Below, in pieces: positions 2,590 through 45,493 of a stretch of 48,867 bases of DNA. Numbering within the stretch: position 1 is the stretch's first letter; each line of letters begins with the position of its first letter. The notes beneath the pieces are model-generated. The model was not told the DNA's origin and searched no databases. It saw only the letters and a list, made by a program, of their open reading frames with translations. Source of the DNA: Hydnum rufescens UP504. Taxonomy: Eukaryota; Basidiomycota; Agaricomycetes; Cantharellales; Hydnaceae. Made by a program: the position numbers and the translations under genes. Location: the NCBI GenBank assembly GCA_014904985.1, contig MU128917.1:448279-497145 (forward strand). Reading direction: 5' to 3'.

Positions 2590-3975
2590 TTGAGCATCCC
2601 TGGTGGTGGTGAGGGAAGGTGAGGGGATGATGAGGAACAGCATGGCCAGAAGTTCTCAGAATACACTGAAAGTAGGTGTGTTGAAAATTTGTGATTTGGG
2701 TGCACAGAATGCACCCACACACAGCCTGAGAAACAACACCTAGCCCCCAGGAGGGGCACATGAACCCAAAATGGAAGATTGAGGATAGCACAGTGGAAAG
2801 TGGTCAGTTCATCGCATAAATATGCTTGACGGATTCGGATGAATGAGACAAATCAATGGAGCCCAAGAACACCGAAATCAGCCATGATTTGACCCCCCCA
2901 GGTGATGTTGAGTGGGAGATGAGGGGAAGATGAGGAACTGTGAGGCCAGAAGTTCTCAGAATACACTGGAAGTAGATGTGTTGAAAAGATATGATTTGGG
3001 TGCACAGAATTCACCCACACACAGCCTGAGCAACAACACCTAGCCCCCAGGGGGGGCACATGAACCAAAATGGAAGATTGAGGATAGTGGCAGTGGAAAG
3101 TGGTCAGTTCATTGCATAAATATTCTCGAGGATTTGGATGAATGAGACAAATTGATTGACCCCAAGAACATCAAAATTGGCCACAATTTGACCCCCCAGG
3201 TGATGTTGAGTGGGAGATGAGGGGAAGATGAGGAACTGTGAGGCCAGAAGTTCTCAAAATACACTGGAAGGAGGTGTGTTGAAAGCTGTGATTTGGGCAC
3301 ACAGAATGCACCCACTCACAGCCTGTGGAACAACACCTAGCCCCAGGGGGGGCACATGAACCCAAAATGGAAGATTGAGGATAGTGCAGTGGAAAGTGGT
3401 CAGTTTGTCACGTAAATATGCTCAACAGATTTGGATGAATGAGACAAATTGATTGACCCCAAGAATGTCAAAATTGGCCATGATTTGACCCCCCCAGGTG
3501 ATGTTGAGTGGGAGATGAGGGGAAGATGAGGAACAGTGAGGCCAGATGTTCTCAGAATACACTGGAAGCAGGTGTGTTAAAAAGCTGTGATTTGGGTGCA
3601 CAGAATGCACCCACACACAGCCTGAGCAATGACACCTAGCCCCCAGGAGGGGCACATGAACACAAAATGGAAGATTGAGGATAGCACAGTGGAAAAGGTC
3701 AGTTCATTGTGTGAATATGCTCGACAGATTTGGATGAATGAGACAAATCAATGGAGCCCAAGAACGCCAAAATTGGCCATGATTTGACCCCACCAGGTGA
3801 TGTTGAGTGGGAGATGAGGGGAAGATGAGGAACTGTGAGGCCAGAAGTTCTCAGAACACACTGAAAGTAGGTGTGTTGAAAGGCTGTGATTTGGGCACAC
3901 AGAATGCACCCACACACAGCCTGAGCAACAACACCTAGCCCCCAGGAGAAGCATATGAACCCAAACAGGAAGATT
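2590..3975. repeat. Tandem repeat, about 300-bp unit, 4 full copies plus a partial
   Basis: The marker GATTGAGGATA recurs at about 2778, 3076, 3373 and 3673, with a degenerate copy at about 3971, giving a period of 297-302 bp. Other words recur at fixed offsets, for example GTGATGTTGAGTGGGAGATG and CACACACAGCCTGAG. Copies differ by scattered substitutions and small indels. Minus-strand open frames of 64-106 codons recur in each copy with similar peptides (CVWVHSVHPNH, SENFWPH), but frames and lengths shift between copies, so they are best treated as repeat by-products. Confidence 0.85.
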
Positions 3976-4143
3976 GAGCATAGTGATGTGACATGAATCA
4001 GGTGGTGTATTCTCTTGAAGTTGGCTTGTTGGAGAGCTGAGATTTGGGCACAGACACTGTTCCCACACTCAGCCTATCCAACAAAGCCAGGGCCCAGTGG
4101 GACCCAGCAACATCACATTTGATGTCAGCTGTCTGTTGAAAGC

Positions 4144-9560: not shown

Positions 9561-11835
9561 TACCTGGGTGGGGGCAGTATTTGTTCGGCAGTCTGATCTT
9601 TTGTTCTTATTAACTTATGTACATGTATTTATTTTATTTAAAAATTCAATAAAAAAAAAAGACCACACCCTAGCAGGTGTGGTACTGTCCGTTGCTTCCT
9701 CAGAAGTTCAGATGGGGGGTCGTCCAGTATTCAGACGCGGGTTCAGGGGACACACTGCTGAGGTGTCGGGTGGTATCTATTGCACAAGAATCTAAGAAAA
9801 TATAATTAAATATAAGTCAAAAATTCAAAAAAAAAACATACTTAGTAGCACCACACACCCGCCCTAAGGGGTGTGTGGTGCTTTCCGTTGCTTGATCGGG
9901 GTTCGGCCAGCTCATTGGTGGCCATTGGGGGAGTGAGGCTCGGCGGTTCACCGTTGGGGGGGTCATTTGGACGGGTCGCGGTCATCGTTGGGGTGGGTCG
10001 TCATTTCGGGAGCTTCTAAAATAATCATACACATTAGTAAAAAAAATTCAAAGTGACGCAAAAGGAGCAGCTTGCACTGCTCCTTTTGCATCACTGCAGA
10101 TACAGAAAATAAAATAAAAATACCTTGTAGTACCACACCCGCCGAAGCGGGTGTGGTACTCATTTTGGCCCGCGGTTGCGGGTTCTGGGATCGGGTTGCG
10201 GGTGGCCGCGCACATTTCTTTTTCACCTTGGAAGTTGGCTGTGTTCTTGTTGGGTGGGGTTTCGTGCATTGAGGGGAGACCTAGAATAATCAATAATACA
10301 TTAGTTTGAAAAAAAAAACAGAAGCAGCACCCAAAGAGCAGCTACTGCTGCTCTTTGGGCGCCGTTGTATGAGAAACTCACTAGCTATTACCACACACCC
10401 GCCGCAGCGGGTGTGTGGTACTGTATTTCATCCGTCGTTGTGTACGTTGTGGGTGTTCAGGCGCTGGGCTCTTGGATCGGGTTGCGGGTTGCGGGTGGTG
10501 GGTGGCTGCGCATGTCCCTTTTTTGTGCAGGGGATTTTCGCACTGGGGGACGGATCAATCAGTAAATAACACGTTAATTTAAAATGGAAAAAAAAAAAAA
10601 AAAAAAAAAACAAAGGAAGCACCAAAAGAGCAGCTTCTGCTGCTCTTTTGGTGCTTTCGTACATCCTGTAATTGAAAACCTACAAGGTATTACCACACAC
10701 CCGCCGCAGCGGGGTGTGGTACGCGATTTCGTCGATCGTCGTGTTCGGGGGGTGGGCACTAGAGGCCTGTGTGGCTGCGCATTGACTGGTGTACTGGGGC
10801 TCGTCCATATCGTCGTCGGGTGGGTTTTCACATAGGGAAGGGACCTAGAACAGCGAATAATAATACGTTAGTAAAAAAAAAGAAAACAGAGGTGCCAAAA
10901 GAGCAGCTTTTGCTGCTCTTTTGGCACCGGTGGGATTAGACGTACCTAATATTACCACACACCCGCCGAAGCGGGTGTGTGGCACACGGTTTCGTCGATC
11001 GTCGTTTCGGGGGGCAGGCACTCTGGGCTTGGGTGGCTGCACGTACTGGGGGCTCGTCCATGTCCTCGTCGGGTGGGTTTTCACGGAGGGAAGGAACCTA
11101 TAAGAACGAATAATAATACCTTAGTAAAAAAAAGAAAACAGGAGTGCCAAAAGAGCAGCAGAAGCTGCTCTTTTGGCACGGGTGGGATTAGACGTACCTA
11201 ATATTACCACACACCCGCCAAAGCGGGTGTGTGGTTCCGTCTGTGCTTTATGGTCTTGCGTCGTGGGTTTCCGGTCCTGGGTTTCGTCTGGTGAGCCGAT
11301 CGGGGGCAGGTTTCGTTGGTTGGGGTTTTGGCGGGTTATGTTCGTAGCTTCGTTTTGGCGGGGGCTTCGTTGTGTGTTCAAATGAGAATATAGAATAATA
11401 AATAATAAGTTAGTAAAAAAGAAAAAAAAGAAAAGCCACGCAAAAGGAGCAGCATATGCTGCTCCTTTTGCGTGGTTGTACAGATGCTTACCTTAAAGCT
11501 ACCACGCACCCGCCGAAGTGGGTGTGTGGTTCCGTCTGGGTTTTGGCTGGCCAGCCGTCGTTGGCGGGTCGCATCTTCATTTCTGGGGGGGGGGTGGTTC
11601 GTTCGGTGGGTCGTCGTTTTGCTGCTTCTGGCCGATAACCTAGAATAATAACTAATGTATTAGTTAAGAACTAAAATCAGCGCAAAAAGAGCAGCTTTCG
11701 CTGCTCTTTTTGCGCCACAGGAGAGGGGGGGGAACTCACCTTAATTAGTACCACACACCCGCCGCCGCGGGTGTGTGGTCGTGTGGTCGCCTTTCTGGCT
11801 GTTACGGGGTGTGGCTGCGTACTTGCAATTCAACG
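9560..11835 (-). repeat. H1/H2 module array, block 5, running left from hub 2
   Basis: Nine minus-strand H1 hairpins at about 9660, 9850, 10131, 10389, 10692, 10953, 11205, 11500 and 11750. Seven H2 hairpins lie at about 10052-10094, 10324-10362, 10617-10654, 10890-10928, 11143-11180, 11433-11474 and 11677-11716. Introns have minus donors such as TTAG|GTACGT, ACTAAT/ACTAACGT branch sites and TTCTAG acceptors. The intron at 9792-9841 (50 nt) has no H2. H2 stems differ between copies by paired changes, for example GTGCCAAAAGAGCAGC against ACGCAAAAGGAGCAGC, each matched on the other strand of the stem. Period is about 250-300 bp. Confidence 0.85.
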
Positions 11836-16546: not shown

Positions 16547-16678
16547 GACTCACTCCTAGGTGAGTCATATGTGAGTCATAGGTGAGAACAATAGGGTTGT
16601 CAAGGAGGGTGAGTCATTCATAAGGTGGTTGCATGATAGGTGAGTCATTCATAAGGTGGTTGCAAGGAAGGTGAGTCA
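16547..16678. promoter_or_regulatory. Cluster of six TGAGTCA/TGACTCA sites
   Basis: TGACTCA lies at 16547 and TGAGTCA at 16561, 16572, 16610, 16641 and 16672. The last three sit in a 31-bp tandem repeat (GGTGAGTCATTCATAAGG). TGASTCA is the binding core of AP-1/Gcn4-class bZIP factors. The first two sites also form a short palindrome around CTCCTAGG. No clear gene starts just downstream, so this may be an LTR enhancer or an accidental product of tandem duplication. Confidence 0.45.
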
Positions 16679-16959
16679 TTCATAAACAGAACAAAAGGGT
16701 AGTCAAGGAGGTGTTATCTTTCTTATCTGTGAAGTTCTAGAAGTTATTTGTGGCAATGGGAGATGAAATCAAAGGATATTTCCGAGTTCTTGGAGATTAA
16801 TTTGTTTGTAGTCCAGTGGTTAAGATGTTTTTGTTGCTGGTTGATAATGGGGACAAGTGCATGGGATGGGATTTGATGCAGAAACAACAGTTTGCATCCG
16901 TAATAGATGTTCTTGGTATCATTAAATGCGGATTTTTAACAGCTTTCTGGGAGCAGTGG

Positions 16960-18745: not shown

Positions 18746-19255
18746 ATGCATGCCAGCTTGTACTCTTGCCTTAGGTGGCTGCTTTGTCCATACACAGCTG
18801 GTACTCTTGCCTTAGCTGGCTGCTTTGTCCATACATGGCTGGTACTCTTGCCTTAGCTGGCTGCTTTGTCCATACATGGCTGGTACTCTTGCCTTAGCTG
18901 GCTGTTTTGTCCATACATGGCTGGTACTCTTGCCTTAGCTGGTCTGTTTTGTCCATACATGGCTGGTACTCTTGCTTAGCTGGCCTGTTTTGTCCATACA
19001 TGGCTGGTACTCTTGCCTTAGCTGGCTGTTTTGTCATACATGGCTGGCGTTGTACTCTGTCTGCCTTAGCTGGCTGTTTTGTCCATACATGGCTGGTACT
19101 CTTGCCTTAGCTGGCTGTTATTGTCCATACATGGCTGGTACTCTGCCTTAGCTGGCTGTTTTGTCCATACATGGTATCTGCTTAGCTGCTGTTTGTTACT
19201 GCTGTTTTGTTATTTTTTCCATACATGGCTTGTACTCTTGCCTTAGGTGGCTGTT
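18745..19255. repeat. 41-bp tandem repeat, about 12 copies
   Basis: Units contain GGTACTCTTGCCTTAGCTGG, CTGCTTTGTCC and ATACATGGCT. The word TCCATAC recurs every 41 bp (18787, 18828 and onward). Copies are nearly identical up to about 18950, then gain small indels and truncations towards 19250, consistent with ongoing slippage at one end or with assembly error. Confidence 0.9.
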
Positions 19256-28499: not shown

Positions 28500-28815
28500 T
28501 GATCATCCGACTGCGTGTGATTCGCACATACATCAAACATGTACACAACTCTCCTTTCGCCTTGTAATTACTGGCTGAGGGGGGAAGATCCGACTCGTGC
28601 GGACAAAGGGATTAGAACGTCATCTAATCGCGCTTAGTCCCGCTTGAGCAGTGAGCAGGGTCCCTATGTTATGGTATTTTCCTCACTTGAACCACAAGTG
28701 GTTCTACTTCGCCATGCGAAATATTTCAGGTGTGGAGCCGGGCCTTTAAATCGGCGAATTTGAAAGTTCAAGTCCCTCCAAGTAGACAGCTATTGATGAG
28801 CATAGCCAACAAGGG
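28500..28815. other. No gene recognised
   Basis: Short stretch between the Sec14 fragment and the assembly gap, with no supported feature. Confidence 0.4.
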
Positions 28816-29545
28816 NNNNNNNNNNNNNNNNNNNNNNNNNNNNNNNNNNNNNNNNNNNNNNNNNNNNNNNNNNNNNNNNNNNNNNNNNNNNNNNNNNNNN
28901 NNNNNNNNNNNNNNNNNNNNNNNNNNNNNNNNNNNNNNNNNNNNNNNNNNNNNNNNNNNNNNNNNNNNNNNNNNNNNNNNNNNNNNNNNNNNNNNNNNNN
29001 NNNNNNNNNNNNNNNNNNNNNNNNNNNNNNNNNNNNNNNNNNNNNNNNNNNNNNNNNNNNNNNNNNNNNNNNNNNNNNNNNNNNNNNNNNNNNNNNNNNN
29101 NNNNNNNNNNNNNNNNNNNNNNNNNNNNNNNNNNNNNNNNNNNNNNNNNNNNNNNNNNNNNNNNNNNNNNNNNNNNNNNNNNNNNNNNNNNNNNNNNNNN
29201 NNNNNNNNNNNNNNNNNNNNNNNNNNNNNNNNNNNNNNNNNNNNNNNNNNNNNNNNNNNNNNNNNNNNNNNNNNNNNNNNNNNNNNNNNNNNNNNNNNNN
29301 NNNNNNNNNNNNNNNNNNNNNNNNNNNNNNNNNNNNNNNNNNNNNNNNNNNNNNNNNNNNNNNNNNNNNNNNNNNNNNNNNNNNNNNNNNNNNNNNNNNN
29401 NNNNNNNNNNNNNNNNNNNNNNNNNNNNNNNNNNNNNNNNNNNNNNNNNNNNNNNNNNNNNNNNNNNNNNNNNNNNNNNNNNNNNNNNNNNNNNNNNNNN
29501 NNNNNNNNNNNNNNNNNNNNNNNNNNNNNNNNNNNNNNNNNNNNN
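28816..29545. other. Assembly gap (730 N)
   Basis: A run of N. The open frames that appear to cross it are artefacts. The true length may differ from 730. Confidence 1.
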
Positions 29546-29926
29546 ACTTCTTTCGCTACTCACCGGTGTTGGTGGAGCCACGTTAAACCGGAGGGTGAGG
29601 AAAATGCAACGCCCACTTGTGAGTCATATTCGCTAATCTGACACGCCACTTCGGTGCTATTTTTCAAACGGGGGCAACCTGTAGGCTCGTTCCCCGGGCC
29701 AGCACCCAGCTCAAGTGAATTGCGAAGTTTCTTCTTTGTGCTTCCAACGGATCGAAGATCCGAATCATCACCAACTGTCAAATATTTTTATGGGTACGGT
29801 GCACAATGGCCCTGCCCATGACATCCCGACATCACATGGTGGAGGCAGGTCTCAACCAGCTAGCATTCAAGTGTAGGAAGCGACAATTAGGCAGGCTTAG
29901 TATGGCCATGGACCTCTGGGGATTTA

Positions 29927-32703: not shown

Positions 32704-33556
32704 GCTATGGTGCCAATCTATCAATCTTCCATGTTGAATCGGCTGAGGCCTCGGTGCTGACGCGAGTATACCGAACGCGATCGTGTAATCTACTAGGCTT
32801 ACCAGCCCAGAATTCGACCTCACTATGCTCACATTATTAGCAATGAACACATGGAGTATTTGGAAAGAAGCCTACTCGGGTATTACTCGCCACCCACCCC
32901 AAAACTCTGGCAGTGGGATGTCTACATCAGCACTGCCTCCTTGTATGCCAAAGCGCTCTTCTAGGACATGATATCGCCTCTGCACATCCCCCTCTTCTAC
33001 TACGGTGCTTTGTTTGCTTGCGTACGCACCAATCCTACTTCCAACGGGTCGAGATTTGAAGTAGGCTTCGCTCTCTAGCTTGGCTACCATCTCTACTCGA
33101 CCGACCACGCGGACTTGCCGGTGGATCTCCTTCCAGTAGAACGTGAGGGCAGCGACAGGGTTTTCCTTGAGTTCACGGGATTTCCGGGATGTATAATTAG
33201 TGTAGATCACAAATCCTCCCTCATCGACACGTTTAAGGAGGACGACGCGTGAAGATGGAATGCCAGATGCGGATGCCGTCGAGAATGTCATTGCTTCGGG
33301 CTCCACTACGGCAGGGATTTTCTTCTGCAGCTTTGAACCATTCTCTGAATTGATCTAAGGGCGATGGGAGCACCAGGTTTGGAGCAAGGGTGGTTGGAGA
33401 GTCATACTGGTGGTGGGTGGTCACAGCGATGATTGGGGGAGCGTGAGATGCCATGCGAGAGGTACGAAAACACCCTCGAGTCGCAGCTGATCTAATATTA
33501 CTGTAACGCGACAAAGATGCTGCTGCACGCAGGAGACTTCGCTTCCACCCGGGCAC
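32704..33556 (-). CDS. PDX3: Pyridoxamine/pyridoxine 5'-phosphate oxidase
   Basis: FMN-dependent enzyme that oxidises PNP or PMP to pyridoxal 5'-phosphate (vitamin B6 salvage). From ATG 33556 an Arg-rich leader ([16 protein letters not shown]) looks mitochondrial; a second ATG at 33454 (MASHAPP) would give a cytosolic form. Then come [41 protein letters not shown] (FMN phosphate contacts), [25 protein letters not shown] and [15 protein letters not shown]. Intron 32823-32875 (GTAGGC to GCATAG) joins WRVIP to [20 protein letters not shown], and the protein ends WKIDRLAP at TAG 32704. One frame slip occurs near 33322 in an A-run (GAAGAAAATCCC), most simply a homopolymer error. Family assignment is firm. 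Confidence 0.92.
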
Positions 33557-39002: not shown

Positions 39003-39062
39003 GTACGAATGTATTTAACATTTTCCACACGCCCTCTTTTCTGCCTCCCCAGTCCTTCAACC
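39003..39062 (+). promoter_or_regulatory. Core promoter of the GTPase gene
   Basis: GTATTTAACATTTTCC (about 39010-39025) then a pyrimidine-rich leader (CGCCCTCTTTTCTGCCTCCC) directly before CAACCATG. This is typical fungal spacing but not diagnostic. Confidence 0.4.
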
Positions 39063-40178
39063 ATGTGGAACTCCATCCGCAAGCTTTTTAAACTCACTAA
39101 CAAAGACGGTGATACAAACAGGCGCTTCAGGGTCCTCATACTTGGTCCGGCGAATGCAGGAAAGACCACTCTGCTTGAACGCCTGACTGACAGCTCTGCT
39201 GGCGCGGCCATGGTGACCCGGAACGGAAAACGTGTCATTACTACAAATGTTTGAACTCAGTAGAGATGCTGGTCTAATTTTCTTTATCTTTTCAGATCAA
39301 GGAGGTCCCTAGGGGATACGATCAAGTAAGAGCGATCATCCAAGGGGCACTGTGGTTATTTGATGTTCTCATACCATCTAGCGAGGGATCCATAGCATCG
39401 ATGATGAAATCACTTATGCATCAAATGCTGAGCTCGTTTTCCATGACTCTGGTGGTTTCGAGGCGGGAGGGGTCCAGGAGGTCGAGACTGTCTGGAAATT
39501 TATTCGAGAGCGCTCGTTAGCTCCACCTTCACAGCAACTGCATGTGATTTGGTGCGTTCACATGGTTCATGCATCCTCACACTTTGACTCATCCAATACT
39601 ACAGGCTCTGCATTCCAACAGATAATGACAGGCCTTTTGGATTCCTGCAGTCAAGATTTTTCTCTGAACCTACAGCATCAGGTATGTCCCATGAGTCATA
39701 GCATTTGACCCTATGTGTTACCCACTGACCTGTGCATCCCTCAGTACCTGTTATCGGGATTTTCACCAAACTGGATGGAAGAAAAACAAAAGTCATGGCT
39801 GAGGTCCTCGGCCCAGCTCCCAGTCCATCCGATTTCCTTGATTGTGCCCGGGAGGTGGAGCAGAAAGTGGCTGAATTTGTTGAGGGACTCGAGACACAAT
39901 TTTGCAAGCAGCAGTACCCACCTGTTGGTTTCATCAGGGTTGGAAGTAAGTAGATTCTATCTCAGTGGAGCTTTTGCTTAAATCTATGGCTTAAAGACAT
40001 GCATGAAGATACTGAGCAGAGCATAGCATCATGTGACCAACTTCTTCAAACCACTATAGATGCTGTTCCACATGGGACCCAGAGATTGTTACTCAGCCTT
40101 ACAATTTGGAAAAGAAACCGCCGGATTCATACCATATATGTTTTAGAACGGTGGATGTCCAATGTCCAAATGGATTGA
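39063..40178 (+). CDS. G-domain GTPase of the expanded basidiomycete family
   Basis: Exons 39063-39248, 39296-39325, 39382-39551, 39605-39681, 39745-39945 and 39997-40178 join in frame with GT..AG introns. G1 is RVLILGPANAGKTTL, G3 is VFHDSGGFEAGG and G4 is GIFTKLDGRKTKV; between them are RGIHSIDDEITYA and FIRERSLAPPSQQLHVIW. A helical C-terminal part follows (SIASCDQLLQTTIDAVPHGT). It probably hydrolyses GTP; the biological role of this family is unknown to me. The TGA at 40176-40178 may not be the true end: a donor at GAACG|GTGGAT (about 40150) and an acceptor at CATAG (about 40207) would skip it and continue in frame (VLKGGAKGAGSSCINGIMP) towards the micro-exon array. Confidence 0.8.
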
Positions 40179-40207: not shown

Positions 40208-40483
40208 TGTCCTTAAAGGTGGAGCTAAAGGTGCTGGCTCAAGCTGCATCAATGGGATAATGCCACAACTTGACTATGTTCAGGGAACATTATGGCCAGA
40301 ACCCCAGGACCTGGGAAAGATGAGGCATTGGAGTTACGTGGAGATAAGGGGTTCTGGATTCTCATGGTGGGTGGCTTTGTCACTTGTGAGCAACATTAAG
40401 GTACTGATTGTATCATATGCTGTAACTGTGGCAACTGGTTGTGACACTATTGGTTCATTGGATGGGATTGACAATATAGGAGG
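40208..40483 (+). CDS. Possible additional coding exon linking the GTPase to the intron array
   Basis: After the CATAG acceptor the frame VLKGGAKGAGSSCINGIMP continues open through QLDYVQGTLWPEPQDL and WSYVEIRGSGFSWW to beyond 40380. If the upstream donor at about 40150 is used, it is in phase with the GTPase. The stretch is CpG-poor but protein-like. It then meets GT-rich sequence (GTGAGCAACATT at about 40386) that could be the first donor of the array. Only transcript data can settle this. Confidence 0.35.
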
Positions 40484-43400
40484 TATGGCTGGTGTTAACA
40501 TTTGGTGTATAATTACTGGCTTACATGTCTTTGTGTGACAATATAGTTGGTCAGTCTAAATGTCTGATTATTTGATCCCTGGGAGTTGAATGATATGCCT
40601 TTTGGTGTCATTGGGAATGTAGTATGTGAGTCCAGATCTTGCACCATTCAATGTATGGTTGTTCCTTGATACAGCTTATGTTGGAATCTGCAATGCAGGG
40701 GGTGAGTTTGCATCTCTCAGAATTCAATGTGAGGCTACTAGGTACACATACTTAGTGACATTGATAACATAGCGTGTGAGTACATGTATCCCACCTTTGG
40801 ATCCACATTGTTGCCAGCTGATATATCCCTTGGTGATGTTGACAATGTAGGAGGTAAGACCACACTGCTTGCAGTTTGATATATGGTCAGTACCTGATGG
40901 AATTTTTGGTGGCATGGACACCAAGAATGTGGGTTGGCCTTTTCCACCATTCAATGTGTGATGACTGACTCATACATGTTTTGGTGGGATCAATAACACA
41001 GGATGTATGTCCAGATGTCTTGGAACTTGATTCATGATTTCTGACTAACAAATCTTTGTGGTCATTCATAATATAGTATGTGAGTGTGAATTCAATATGA
41101 GATCCAAGGCTGATACATTGTGGAATGGGATTGATAAAATAGAAGGTAAGTTCATGGTTCCCATGATTGATGGGTGGTTACTGGCCAGTGCATCATTCAG
41201 TGACATGGACACTATAGTATGTAAGTCAGAATTCCCTCTGAGTTGGAAGTATGAGTGACTGACACATTGCTATTTTATTGACAATCAAGGATGTAAGCTC
41301 CCTTTTGATTGTGGGGGCAGTCCCTGGCTGACCTAGCTTGGTGGCATTTACCATCTAGCTGGTAGGTAGCTTCTCTCCCAATTTGATGCAGGGTCACTGG
41401 CTGATATATCAGCTGGTGGTATTCACAATGTAGGGTGTGAGTCTCCATCCCTCACTATCATTAGTGTCTAGTTGATAGATCTTTTGATGCCATGGCTAAC
41501 ATAGGATGTAAGTCCAGATACCTCCCAGTTTCATGTATTGGTGCCAGCTGATACATTGTTGGGTGGGATCAATAACATAGGAAGTAAGGATATGTCTCAT
41601 ATATCTCCCACAATCCATGGGTGGTTGCTTGGCTGACCCATCCTTTGGTGGCCTTGACAACATAGAATCATGTGAGTCTGAATGTCTTAGTATTCAACCT
41701 ATGGTTGTTGACTAATACATCTTTTGGTGGAATTGATGATGCAGGCTGTGTGTTATGGTTCTCTTCCAATTCAATGGATGACTGCAGACTGAGATTTATT
41801 TCTTCAACATGGACAACTTAGGAAGTAAGTCAGGATCTCTCCCACTTTGATGCATGGCCACTCTCTGATACATTATTTGATCCTACTGACAATGTAGCAT
41901 GTGAGCATGGGTCTCTTCCAATTTGATGTGGGGACACTGGCTGACATATATTTTTGGTGTCATTGACAATGCAGCATGTAAGTTCTGATTTCTGCTGCCT
42001 TGATGCACAATCACTGGCTGATGCATCACTGGGTGACATCAATGAGCTAGTTTGTAAGGCTGACTCCCTTTGGATTTGGTGTATCTTCCTGCTGATCCCA
42101 TCCACTGATGGTCTTGACAATATAGCTGGTGGGCCCCATGATCTCAATTTGATGCAAGGTTCCTGATTCATCATCTGGTGGCATGGACAATGCAGGAAGT
42201 GAGTTGCATCCCACATGATTTAATGCATGGCTGCTGTCTTATACTTTTCCTGGTGGGGTTGAAAATGTAGAATGTATGTTGAAATCTCTGGTGATTCAGT
42301 GTGAGGTCACTGGCTGACTGATGCATTGTTTGGTGGCATGGGGAATGTAAGGTGGTGAGTTTACATCTCCCACAATTTATTGGGTGGTCCCTGGTTGATT
42401 TATCTTTGGGTGGCATTGATACCATAGTATGTGGGTGTAGATCTCATACTGTTTGATACATGATCTCCTGCTGATTCATCTTTTGGTGGCATTTGCAATC
42501 CAGGGGGTAGGTCTATATTTCTTAGGATTTGGTACATGACTACTGGCTGATTTATCTCTTTGTCTGATGATAATGTAGAGGGTATGTCAGACTCTCTTAG
42601 AATTCAATGCAAGGTGCTGGCTGATGGATTTTCTGTGACCTGAATACCATAGGATGTGAGTCCATGTTTCCTGCCATCTGAAGTATGTTTGCCAGTTAAT
42701 GCATCTTTTGGTGTCATTGGGAATGTAGGAAGTAAGTCCAGGTGTCTTGGAATTTGATGCACTGTCCCTCACTGATTTGTCTTTTGATGGCATCAACAAT
42801 GTAGGGTGTAAGTCTGGGTGTCTTAGAATTTGATCCATTATCCCTCAATGATTTGTCTTTGGTGGCATTTGAAACATAGCATGTTAGTTTGGATGTCTTA
42901 TAATTTGATGCATTGTCCCTTGCTGATTGATCCTTTGGTGGCATCAACAACACAGCATGTAATTCCAGATTTCTTAGAATATGATGCATCATCCCTTGCT
43001 GATTCATCTTTTAATGGGATTGACAATATAGGGTGTAAGTCCAGGTGTCTTGGAATTCAATACCTGCTGATTCATAGGCTGGTGGATCCACAACATAGGG
43101 TGTAAGTCTGGATGTCTCAGAATCCAATGCATTGTCCCTTGCTAATTTGAATTTTGGTGCTGTCCACAACATAGGGTGTAAGTCCAGATGTCTTAGGATT
43201 GAATGCATTATCACTTGCTGATTTGTCTTTGTGGGAAACATAGCTTGTAAGTCTGAATATTTTAGAAGTTGATGCATTGTCCCCTACTGATTCATCTTTT
43301 GGTGGCATTGATGACATAGCTTGTAAGCCTGCATGCCTTAGGATTTAATGTGTTGTCCCTTCTTAATGCATCTTTTTCTGGCATAAACAACATAGGGTGT

Positions 43401-44950
43401 AAGTGCAGATGTAATTTGGTGCATTATCCTTTGCTGATTCATCATTGGGTGGCATTGTTGACATAGGGTGTAAGTCCAGATGTCCTGGGATCCAATCCAT
43501 TATCTCTCATTAATTTATCTTGGGTGTCATTGACAACATAGCCTGTAAGTCCAGGTGTGTTAGCATTTGATGTATTGTCCCTTGCTGATCCATTTTTTGG
43601 TGGCATTCACCATGTAGGGTGTAAGCCCTGATGTCATAGGATTCAAGGCATTATATAACCCTTGCTGATTTGTCTTTTGGTCACATTTTTAACAATGCAG
43701 CATGTGAGTCAGGATGTCTCAGCATTCAATGTATTGTCTCTTGCTGACCAATATTTTGATGGCATCAATGAGATAGCTTGTAAGTCCTGGTGTCTTAGAA
43801 TTTGATGTGTCATCTCTTGCTGATTCATCTTTTGTGGTCTCCATGACATAGATTGTAAGTCTCAATGTTGTAGAATTCAATGTCCCTTGTTGATTTGTCT
43901 TTTGGTGGCACCAACAATATAGGAAGTAAGTCTAGGTGTCATAGAATTTGATGCATCACCCCTGATTCATCTTTTGGTGGGTTTACAATGTAGTTTGTAA
44001 GTCTGGATGTCTTGGAATTCAATGCTTGCTGATTCATATTTTGGTGGCATCCACAATGTAGCAGGTATGTCCAGATGTCTTGAAATTTGATGCATTGTCA
44101 CTTGCTGATTCTTCTTTGGGTGGCATGAAAAATGTAGAGTGTAAGTGGATGTCTTAGGCTTGATTTTCCTTCCTGATTCATCTTGTATCAATGACATAGC
44201 TTGTATGTCTGGATGTCTTAGAATTTGATGTCCATTCCTTGCTAATGCAACTTTTGTGGCATTGATAATATAGATTGTAAGTCCAGATGCATTAAAATTT
44301 GATTCCCTTGCTGATCCATGTTCTTATGGCATCAAAAATGTAGTTTGTAAATCTATATGTCTTAAAATTTGGTGCTTCTTCCATGCTGATTTGTCTTTTG
44401 GTACCATTGCCAACATAGCCTGTAAGTCCAGATGTCTGAGAATTTGATGTATTGTCCCTTGCTGATTTATGTTTTGGTGACATCAACACCAAAGGTTGTA
44501 AGTTTAGAGACTATAATTCAATGTGTCCCTTGCTAATCTATCTTTTGGTGCCATTGACAATGTAGCATGTAAGTCTAGAGGTCCATAACTTGATGCACCA
44601 TCCCTTACTAATTTGTCTTGACATTGGCAACATAGTCTGTGAGTCCTGTTTGTAGAATTCAAACCATCATTGTTTGCTGATGTCTAGCTTGATGGTCATG
44701 GCCATGTACTAGGAGGTCAGTCTGCATGTCCCACCATTTGATTTATGATTCTGGCCAATATCTTACTTGGTGGCCTCTAACATGCAGGATGTAAGTCTGC
44801 ATCTGTTACCATTGTGCTTATGGTCCCTGGCACATCAACATTTTGCTAATGTTCATCATCTAGATTGTAAGTTCAGGGATCTATCATATTCTATTTTCCA
44901 ACTGCATTTCTTACAATTGGCTTTACTGCAGGATAATGTATGTCATATCT
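40484..44950 (+). repeat. Array of 61 intron-like units separated by 3- or 6-nt micro-exons
   Basis: Every ~75 bp the pattern (T/C)AG-NNN-GTRAGT recurs. Examples are ACAATATAG GAG GTATGG (about 40480), AATGTAG GAG GTAAGA (about 40850), ACATAG GGT GTAAGT (repeatedly 43030-43630) and ACATAG CCT GTAAGT (44420). I read 61 junctions: 59 have exactly 3 nt between AG and GT, and two have 6 nt (AATCAT near 41665, GATAAT near 44931). Each unit also keeps a CTGAT, CTAAT or CTGAC branch-like word 25-40 nt before the AG. A GATGTCTTAGAATTTGATG core is well kept in the right half (42700-44600) and blurred in the left half, where the splice words persist. Read as codons, the 3-nt pieces include no stop. No hairpin is shared with the H1/H2 family. 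Confidence 0.9.
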
Positions 44951-45059: not shown

Positions 45060-45493
45060 CACCCATGCTGTGTTAGGTGCTCGAATCTGCAGGGGGTGAA
45101 GGCCTGTGCATGCTTGCTCAAACCATTGGTTAGTTTATATTTTCATTAATTTTCCCCCTTCCAGGAAGTCTAAGCACTCATTCCAGCATCACCTGTTTGC
45201 ACCATCAAACCTTAATGCTCAATATGTGGTTTTCATTTGTTGTCAGTGTTGAGACCAATTCTAAGTGCGCAGGAGATTGCTTATCTTGGCATGTTGAACT
45301 AGTGGTTGTCCTTTGGATTCGGTCAGAGAGGAATGCAGATTCACCTAAGCCAACTGGAACAGAGCATGTCACTAGCTCAATCCAGGCACAGATCAAGAGT
45401 GAATTGATGGATAATGGATACTTGGAAAAACTAGATTCATACAAGATTGCAAGGAGACTGGCAAGGATCATTGATAACTGTACACCATTGTAG
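45060..45493 (+). CDS. Possible terminal exons downstream of the micro-exon array
   Basis: CTGCAG|GGGGTGAAGGCC (about 45093) to CCATTG|GTTAGT (about 45129), then CCTTCCAG|GAAGTC (about 45167) are plausible exon borders. An open frame then runs 45197-45493, ending RRLARIIDNCTPL. The last third (KSELMDNGYLEKLDSYKIAR) looks protein-like. There is no domain match. It is listed because it would be the natural 3' end if the array is transcribed and spliced. Confidence 0.25.

Follow-up and report, generated by a model that had tools for sequence, protein, structure and literature searches.

Can a gene be built of exons that are each a single codon long? The question is raised by a stretch of 48,867 nucleotides (nt), here called the window, which is C9:448279-497145 of the 63.2-Mb genome of the mushroom Hydnum rufescens UP504 (a basidiomycete, order Cantharellales). 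Between positions 40480 and 44937 of the window lie 61 putative micro-exons, 59 of 3 nt and two of 6 nt, each flanked by AG upstream and GT downstream; the first is GAG at 40480 and the last is GATAAT, ending at 44937. The 59 introns separating the first 60 of them are 59-82 nt long, most commonly 73 nt, and the array units are near-identical repeats of 76 nt. Both the counts and the absence of TAA, TAG and TGA from the 3-nt spacers, reported earlier from the letters of the window (the sequence-only reading), were reproduced exactly on recount. Our answer is that this is probably a protein-coding GTPase gene whose tail is encoded one codon per exon, the array presumably acting as a device for codon-by-codon diversification. 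We infer the splicing, translation and function, and the diversifying process too, from sequence.

The spacers were measured in 29 loci of the same family with a junction caller that gave equal prior weight to every spacer length from 0 to 12 nt (a flat prior). The unbiased figure is 1,585 spacers of 3 nt among 1,679 junctions. Gap filling with a looser threshold and a flat prior added 31 junctions (25 of them 3 nt), and a further 29 came from a search restricted to AG-NNN-GT, bringing the running total to 1,639 of 1,739. In the window, the flat-prior caller alone recovered 57 of the 3-nt spacers and a single 6-nt one. Two weak sites were recovered by gap filling (GAG at 44713 and GTG at 42352, the latter by the AG-NNN-GT search), and GATAAT was located by inspecting the sequence and matching the string.

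None of the 1,585 spacers of 3 nt is a stop codon, against about 50 expected, whether from base composition or with base 1 or base 3 shuffled within loci. The count is also zero in each of two parts run separately, 23 loci and 6 (L016, L019, L020, L028, L030 and L031). Spacers that begin with TA end in T in all 166 cases; those that begin with [ACG]A do so in 407 of 686. In a rough offset control on 1,610 triplets (L029 and L031 left out), in which neighbouring columns are dependent and observed-to-expected ratios run from 0.09 to 4.73, offset 0 had no stops against 49.9 expected and was the sole stop-free offset among those with at least 10 expected. Offsets -5 (3 against 32.9) and +1 (4 against 43.6) are likewise depleted, which we attribute to the make-up of the splice sites. 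When the codons of the 23 loci with few irregular spacers were concatenated, the other two frames held 3 and 263 stops per 1,273 codons, and only the second of these counts gives a strong contrast. In 19 of the 29 loci all called spacers are multiples of three and contain no stop. Three loci fetched after the caller had been trained behaved in the same way, with 171 of 177 spacers of 3 nt, no stops and the same opening peptide.

The concatenated codons are moreover conserved as a peptide. Paralogues share the one-codon-per-exon sequence ELYGHENDYEYK...LENVYRRDE, followed by a variable zone made mostly of NNT codons and then by a common end; examples are ELYGHENDYEYKAPDNLD.. and ..DENAEH..LENVYRRDE, with VESMDL or PEDL after the variable stretch.

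The splice signals were compared in a whole-sequence alignment of 13 loci made blind to splice sites. Mismatch was 0.000 at AG, 0.004 at GT, 0.076 at the branch A, 0.074 at the branch T and 0.142 at donor positions +3 to +6, against 0.252 in the intron interior; acceptor positions -3 to -6 (0.24) are barely below the interior. Gap pairs made up 0.09 at AG/GT and 0.13 in the interior. In two sets of seven closely related loci, the mismatch at AG and GT was 0-1.7% versus 6.5-7.7% in the interior. The alignment bears out the earlier observation that diverged units in the left half keep their splice words while the rest decays. Retention of CTRAY branch words, claimed at the same time, holds for the branch A and T positions and less so for the full word, which is present in just 21 of 33 reference introns of L022 and 17 of 25 of L024. 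The third codon base is C in only 2 of 1,282 cases, consistent with a constraint imposed by splicing where the exon ends. This pattern indicates that spliceosomal U2-type signals (GT donor, branch word, AG acceptor) are under constraint. Taken with the stop-free spacers (0/1,585), the intact frames (19/29) and the shared peptide, it gives strong comparative support to a genuine transcript made up of dozens of one-codon exons, one of the possibilities that the sequence-only reading had raised.

All exons of the proposed gene lie on the forward strand of the window. Alignment (tblastn) of the public model P0014 (BS47DRAFT_1158118) places a GTPase exon with the P-loop (GPANAGKTTLLERL) at 39009..39236 and a short GTPase exon (IKEVPRGYDQ) at 39293..39325, both with approximate limits. 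A further GTPase exon, RGIHSIDDEITYASN...FHDSGGFEAGG...LHVIW, follows at 39382..39558 (end approximate), and another, VPVIGIFTKLDG...GFIRVG, at 39744..39947, where the last codon of the query overlaps the donor; its TKLD stretch is presumably the GTPase motif. The final ordinary exon ahead of the array, NIMARTPGPGKDEALELRGDKGFWILM, occupies 40283..40366 and ends in phase 0. The array is real and begins slightly earlier than first described, with an intron of 113 nt at 40367..40479 (GTGGGT...ATATAG), drawn from the sequence as a single intron. Micro-exons 1-31 (40480..42731) encode the shared block ELYGRENDYKYDLGDE[NH]AEHHFLENVYGRDE, in which the introns have diverged between positions; the NH pair is the 6-nt micro-exon AATCAT at 41666..41671. 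Micro-exons 32-57 (42805..44638) form the variable zone GHHGGGLLGGPGHLIEFQSLIFPVHS, mostly NNT, with introns more alike. Micro-exons 58-61 (44713..44937) form the end block GAG GAT ATT GATAAT, read as E D I DN, where paralogues have VESMDL-DD or PEDL-DN. Its 6-nt member GATAAT (D N) at 44932..44937 is GATAAT, TATAAT or GATGAT in all nine aligned loci.

Downstream, a predicted exon VLESAGGEGLCMLAQTI at 45077..45128 has boundaries set by inference, with a one-base gap in L028 and its start missing in L026. The predicted last exon, ...VLRPILSAQEIAYLGMLN plus stop, lies at 45247..45302; its counterpart SAQE..A.L..LN-stop was found in 10 of the 16 loci scanned, and the scan gave no match in L009, L010, L012, L018, L021 or L022. 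The frame in the window is open from the array through GATAAT and two further exons to a stop (ELYGRENDYKYDLGDENHAEHHFLENVYGRDEGHHGGGLLGGPGHLIEFQSLIFPVHSEDIDN-VLESAGGEGLCMLAQTI-VLRPILSAQEIAYLGMLN). The public model of this gene, P0014, tracks the gene as far as GFWILM and then departs; the most plausible reading of the N-D-YVSVNSI tail of the model is that it takes in one array exon, the 3-nt GAT at 41002-41004. Since several public models, P0001, P0002, P0013 and P0014 among others of P0001-P0040, stop or lose frame at the array start, the family looks misannotated.

The upstream part of the protein resembles a GTPase. The P-loop and TKxD are motifs of P-loop GTPases, and P0014 carries both, as GPANAGKTT and TKLD. 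In Pfam, P0001 passes the cut-off for Arf (23.0 against 22.3) and P0014 falls just below it (22.2), and both are under the cut-off for MMR_HSR1. Only GTPase-type families appear for P0001, P0014 and P0005, with no NACHT/NB-ARC, WD, ANK or TPR, and two bare exon translations gave no Pfam match. The AlphaFold model of the paralogue P0001 (predicted local distance difference test 81, predicted template-modelling score 0.79) found G proteins as its best Foldseek matches (E 2.7e-6), and also IRG immunity GTPases and the bacterial dynamin BDLP. Template-modelling scores over the query were 0.30-0.48 among the 50 matches listed. As modelled, P0001 has a GTPase fold without a closer family.

The window gene belongs to a large family. 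Its GTPase exon at 39744..39947 has 51 matches in the genome at about 49 places, 50 of them without an internal stop. The loci read number 32, namely the window and 31 others taken as stretches of 5-10 kb, with 18 of the roughly 49 GTPase places left out. An array is present in all 32; L013, L029 and L031 have only short ones, with 13, 16 and 15 junctions called respectively. L031, at 51% in the exon, is the furthest diverged of the copies read, and its roughly 15 one-codon exons spell different codons. Of 15 arrays, 14 fetched by intron pattern and the window itself, 14 have a GTPase match upstream on the same strand and L013 has none. Genome-wide, the pattern TAGNNNGTAAGTCNRNRTGTC is matched exactly 346 times and its reversed control never; the matches listed cluster in arrays. 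A two-junction GTGAGT pattern has 97 matches (control 7), 90 of them on contigs bearing a GTPase match; the other seven are on C10 (the L013 array), C50, C70, C229 (two, in a simple repeat), C476 and C489. A two-junction GTATGT pattern has three matches (control 2), none of them outside the contigs that bear a GTPase match. In L020, about 30 codons of the shared block occur a second time within the array.

Diversity is concentrated in the first two codon bases. In 488 variable-zone codons from 21 loci (counted without L016, L019, L020, L028, L030, L031, L021 and L029), base 3 is T in 91% whereas bases 1 and 2 vary, H, G, L, D and Y being the most frequent residues. Where two units of one array have identical 73-nt introns (125 pairs), their codons are different in 72% (base 1 in 54%, base 2 in 62%, base 3 in 2%); for pairs with at least three intron differences the figure is 87-94%. 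Identical introns share codons more often, yet far less than copying predicts. In 179 of 211 close pairs the neighbouring codons are different. When orthologous positions in the shared block are compared, bases 1 and 2 differ in 50 of 422 cases and introns at 851 of 14,881 sites (seven disjoint locus pairs; Fisher p 2.6e-6), the codons diverging about twice as fast as the introns. Both the number and the order of variable-zone codons differ between paralogues that are about 95-97% identical upstream. Block duplication was considered as a source of the variable zone and rejected, because repeated codon words are within the shuffle range: 16 recurring 3-codon words within loci (shuffle mean 10.5, maximum 25) and four recurring 4-codon words (mean 1.1, maximum 7).

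Under the proposed reading, the spliceosome would remove the ~73-nt introns one after another, by intron definition; the one-at-a-time order is suggested by neighbouring sites that stand just 3 nt apart. Joining of the 61 micro-exons would yield a tail of 63 residues that links the GTPase part to the last exons without a break in frame, and the predicted window tail contains a tryptic peptide, YDLGDENHAEHHFLENVYGR, spanning 19 exons. The tail would be translated and would differ from gene to gene, and by analogy it may form a recognition or binding surface. Most spacers of the variable zone are NNT, a form that can never be a stop. The near-identical introns would serve as an exchangeable scaffold and the two free bases per codon as the diversified part, comparable to fungal NLR genes, whose conserved repeats carry hypervariable positions; the NNT spacers, together with free bases that differ even beside identical introns, are what point to such a device.

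Since codons outpace introns, intron copying would either leave two bases behind or remake them. The second possibility leads to a bolder proposal, which we put forward tentatively and regard as rather doubtful: a diversity generator in which each copying of a 74-nt module (T plus intron) remakes the two bases in front of it. The bases would be untemplated, for example when a reverse transcriptase jumps between excised introns; reverse transcriptases are known to combine untemplated addition with template jumping (PMC8857657). Every gene copy would then grow a fresh random recognition tail, NNT-coded and stop-free, and skipping of any exon would keep the frame and multiply the products.

A number of observations weigh against the reading of the array as a coding, diversifying tail. 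In 10 of the 29 loci one or more spacers have a length not divisible by three (84 of 1,739 spacers overall), 75 of the 84 in L016, L019, L020, L028 and L030. Some of these are miscalls (the first exon of L026; L031); others, checked base by base in L019 and L028, are true spacers of 1, 2 and 4 nt between normal introns, and L039, one of the later loci, has four spacers that are not multiples of three. Some copies are therefore probably broken or in another frame. After filling, 21 gaps in 12 loci were still uncalled, four of the 19 clean loci having a single gap, and the clean locus L027 has one 0-nt spacer. The tail has no contiguous homologue: a search with the spliced tail found neither such a homologue nor an intronless relative with the same codon string. 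The pair L019/L020, one of the seven, has no codon differences at 3.2% intron divergence. The GTPase exon, compared in the 21 of 29 loci in which it was found, is itself rich in replacements (49 synonymous to 108 replacement in one group, 101 to 245 in the other), so that rapid change is not limited to the tail. Finally, a recognition role is argued purely by analogy with fungal NLR repeats. As a separate observation, the length variation in L019 and L028 is mostly in the spacer, and intron lengths are normal.

Several alternatives have to be set against this reading. The one that survives best, with a probability that we place somewhat short of even, is shuffling and selection without any special mechanism: short-tract recombination would homogenise the introns while selection at the protein level maintains many codons. 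The faster divergence of orthologous codons agrees with it, as does the linkage within units, which is weak up to 10 nt and absent at 11 nt or more (tested at 11-25 nt), and fungal NLRs offer a precedent (PMC4986451). On the other hand, codons are near saturation at zero intron differences, the recurring codon words do not exceed the shuffle range, and unlinked sites could equally result from a single copying burst.

A second alternative concerns the origin of the array. An introner-like element may have inserted between the codons of an ordinary coding sequence, leaving young introns among old codons and requiring no special diversification. Identical introns beside unlike codons would be accounted for, and introner-like elements are reported from fungi. 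This origin is unlikely nevertheless: the codon string does not look old or conserved, given that the number and order of variable-zone codons change between close paralogues; T prevails at base 3; and adjacent codons, so often different, give no clear sign of target-site duplication. The self-amplifying intron unit proposed by the sequence-only reading may still describe how the array grew.

Less probable by far is a satellite repeat or a decayed gene family with incidental splice-like words. The near-identical 76-nt units and the loss of frame in some copies would suit it, but the splice dinucleotides are almost invariant against a background mismatch of 25%, the GTPase exon is open in 50 of 51 matches, and it precedes 14 of 15 arrays on the same strand. 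Least credible of all is a giant non-coding intron removed recursively or stepwise, also suggested earlier, whose spacers would be absent from the mRNA or without code: the tandem donor and acceptor layout suits stepwise removal, but the coding constraint on the spacers is left unexplained, with no stops where about 50 are expected, offset 0 alone stop-free, a peptide conserved across paralogues, and AG and GT standing 3 nt apart rather than as AG|GT. On spacer stops, peptide and splice-site conservation, recursive splicing, satellite DNA and decayed genes were accordingly dismissed as principal readings.

Searches of the open-access literature, which omits most subscription papers, turned up no gene composed of consecutive one-codon exons. 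Diversity-generating retroelements randomise the first two bases of a codon and keep a fixed pyrimidine at the third, so that stops are avoided. The Hydnum array resembles them in its two free bases and mostly fixed third base, and differs in that adenines inside its introns are not randomised.

The nearest gene type is that of the schistosome micro-exon genes, with 10-20 exons of 3-81 bp (mostly 15) per gene and introns of 0.1-5 kb (PMC10526429). Like the Hydnum arrays, these have many tiny in-frame exons, form a multigene family and are hard for automatic annotation (PMC10526429). Their exons are of mixed size and their introns long, whereas in the window the exons are 3 or 6 nt, 59 of 61 being one codon, and the introns are tandem relatives of about 73 nt. 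Exons of 1 nt in plants (APC11, VPS55) and a 3-bp exon in human RPS24 indicate that such exons are spliceable (PMC8831610, PMC11162997); in the cases described they number one to three per gene, not dozens one after another. Among fungal introns, introner-like elements and stwintrons multiply and are similar in sequence (PMC9860276, PMC7138796). Introners lie at scattered positions and stwintrons are nested in other introns; the Hydnum copies are in tandem, one per codon, with most GTGAGT matches confined to GTPase contigs and a complete acceptor and a complete donor 3 nt apart. High-internal-conservation repeats of fungal NLRs are near-identical with a few hypervariable codons, change in repeat number and are under diversifying selection (PMC4986451). 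There the conserved scaffold is protein, whereas in Hydnum the scaffold is the intron and the exon is the variable codon alone; the nucleotide-binding domain also differs, being by Pfam a GTPase and not NACHT or NB-ARC. A search for arrays in other, independent assemblies, made with the unspliced repeat frame of L028, found none.

If transcribed and spliced as predicted, the gene family would shrink exons to a single codon, dozens of times consecutively, and would test stringently how closely splice sites can be spaced and in what order introns are removed. For the study of intron birth it provides natural arrays with near-identical introns by the dozen, and it may represent a new route to protein diversification, codon by codon. 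The gene type has been overlooked by standard annotation, the public model of the window gene going off frame at the array.

Elsewhere in the window, tandem repeats of 299 bp lie at 2598-3983 and of 252 bp at 10688-11234, the latter with a CCACACACCCGC...GCGGGTGTGTGG palindrome. Repeats of 11 and 31 bp, rich in GGTGAGTCA, occupy 16557-16685, with related ones at C229:1503-1647, and a 41-bp tandem repeat is present in ten copies at 18756-19174. A run of N at about 28800-29560 is an assembly gap (730 N in the window). On the reverse strand, an open frame at 32872-33354 may encode a pyridoxamine-phosphate oxidase.

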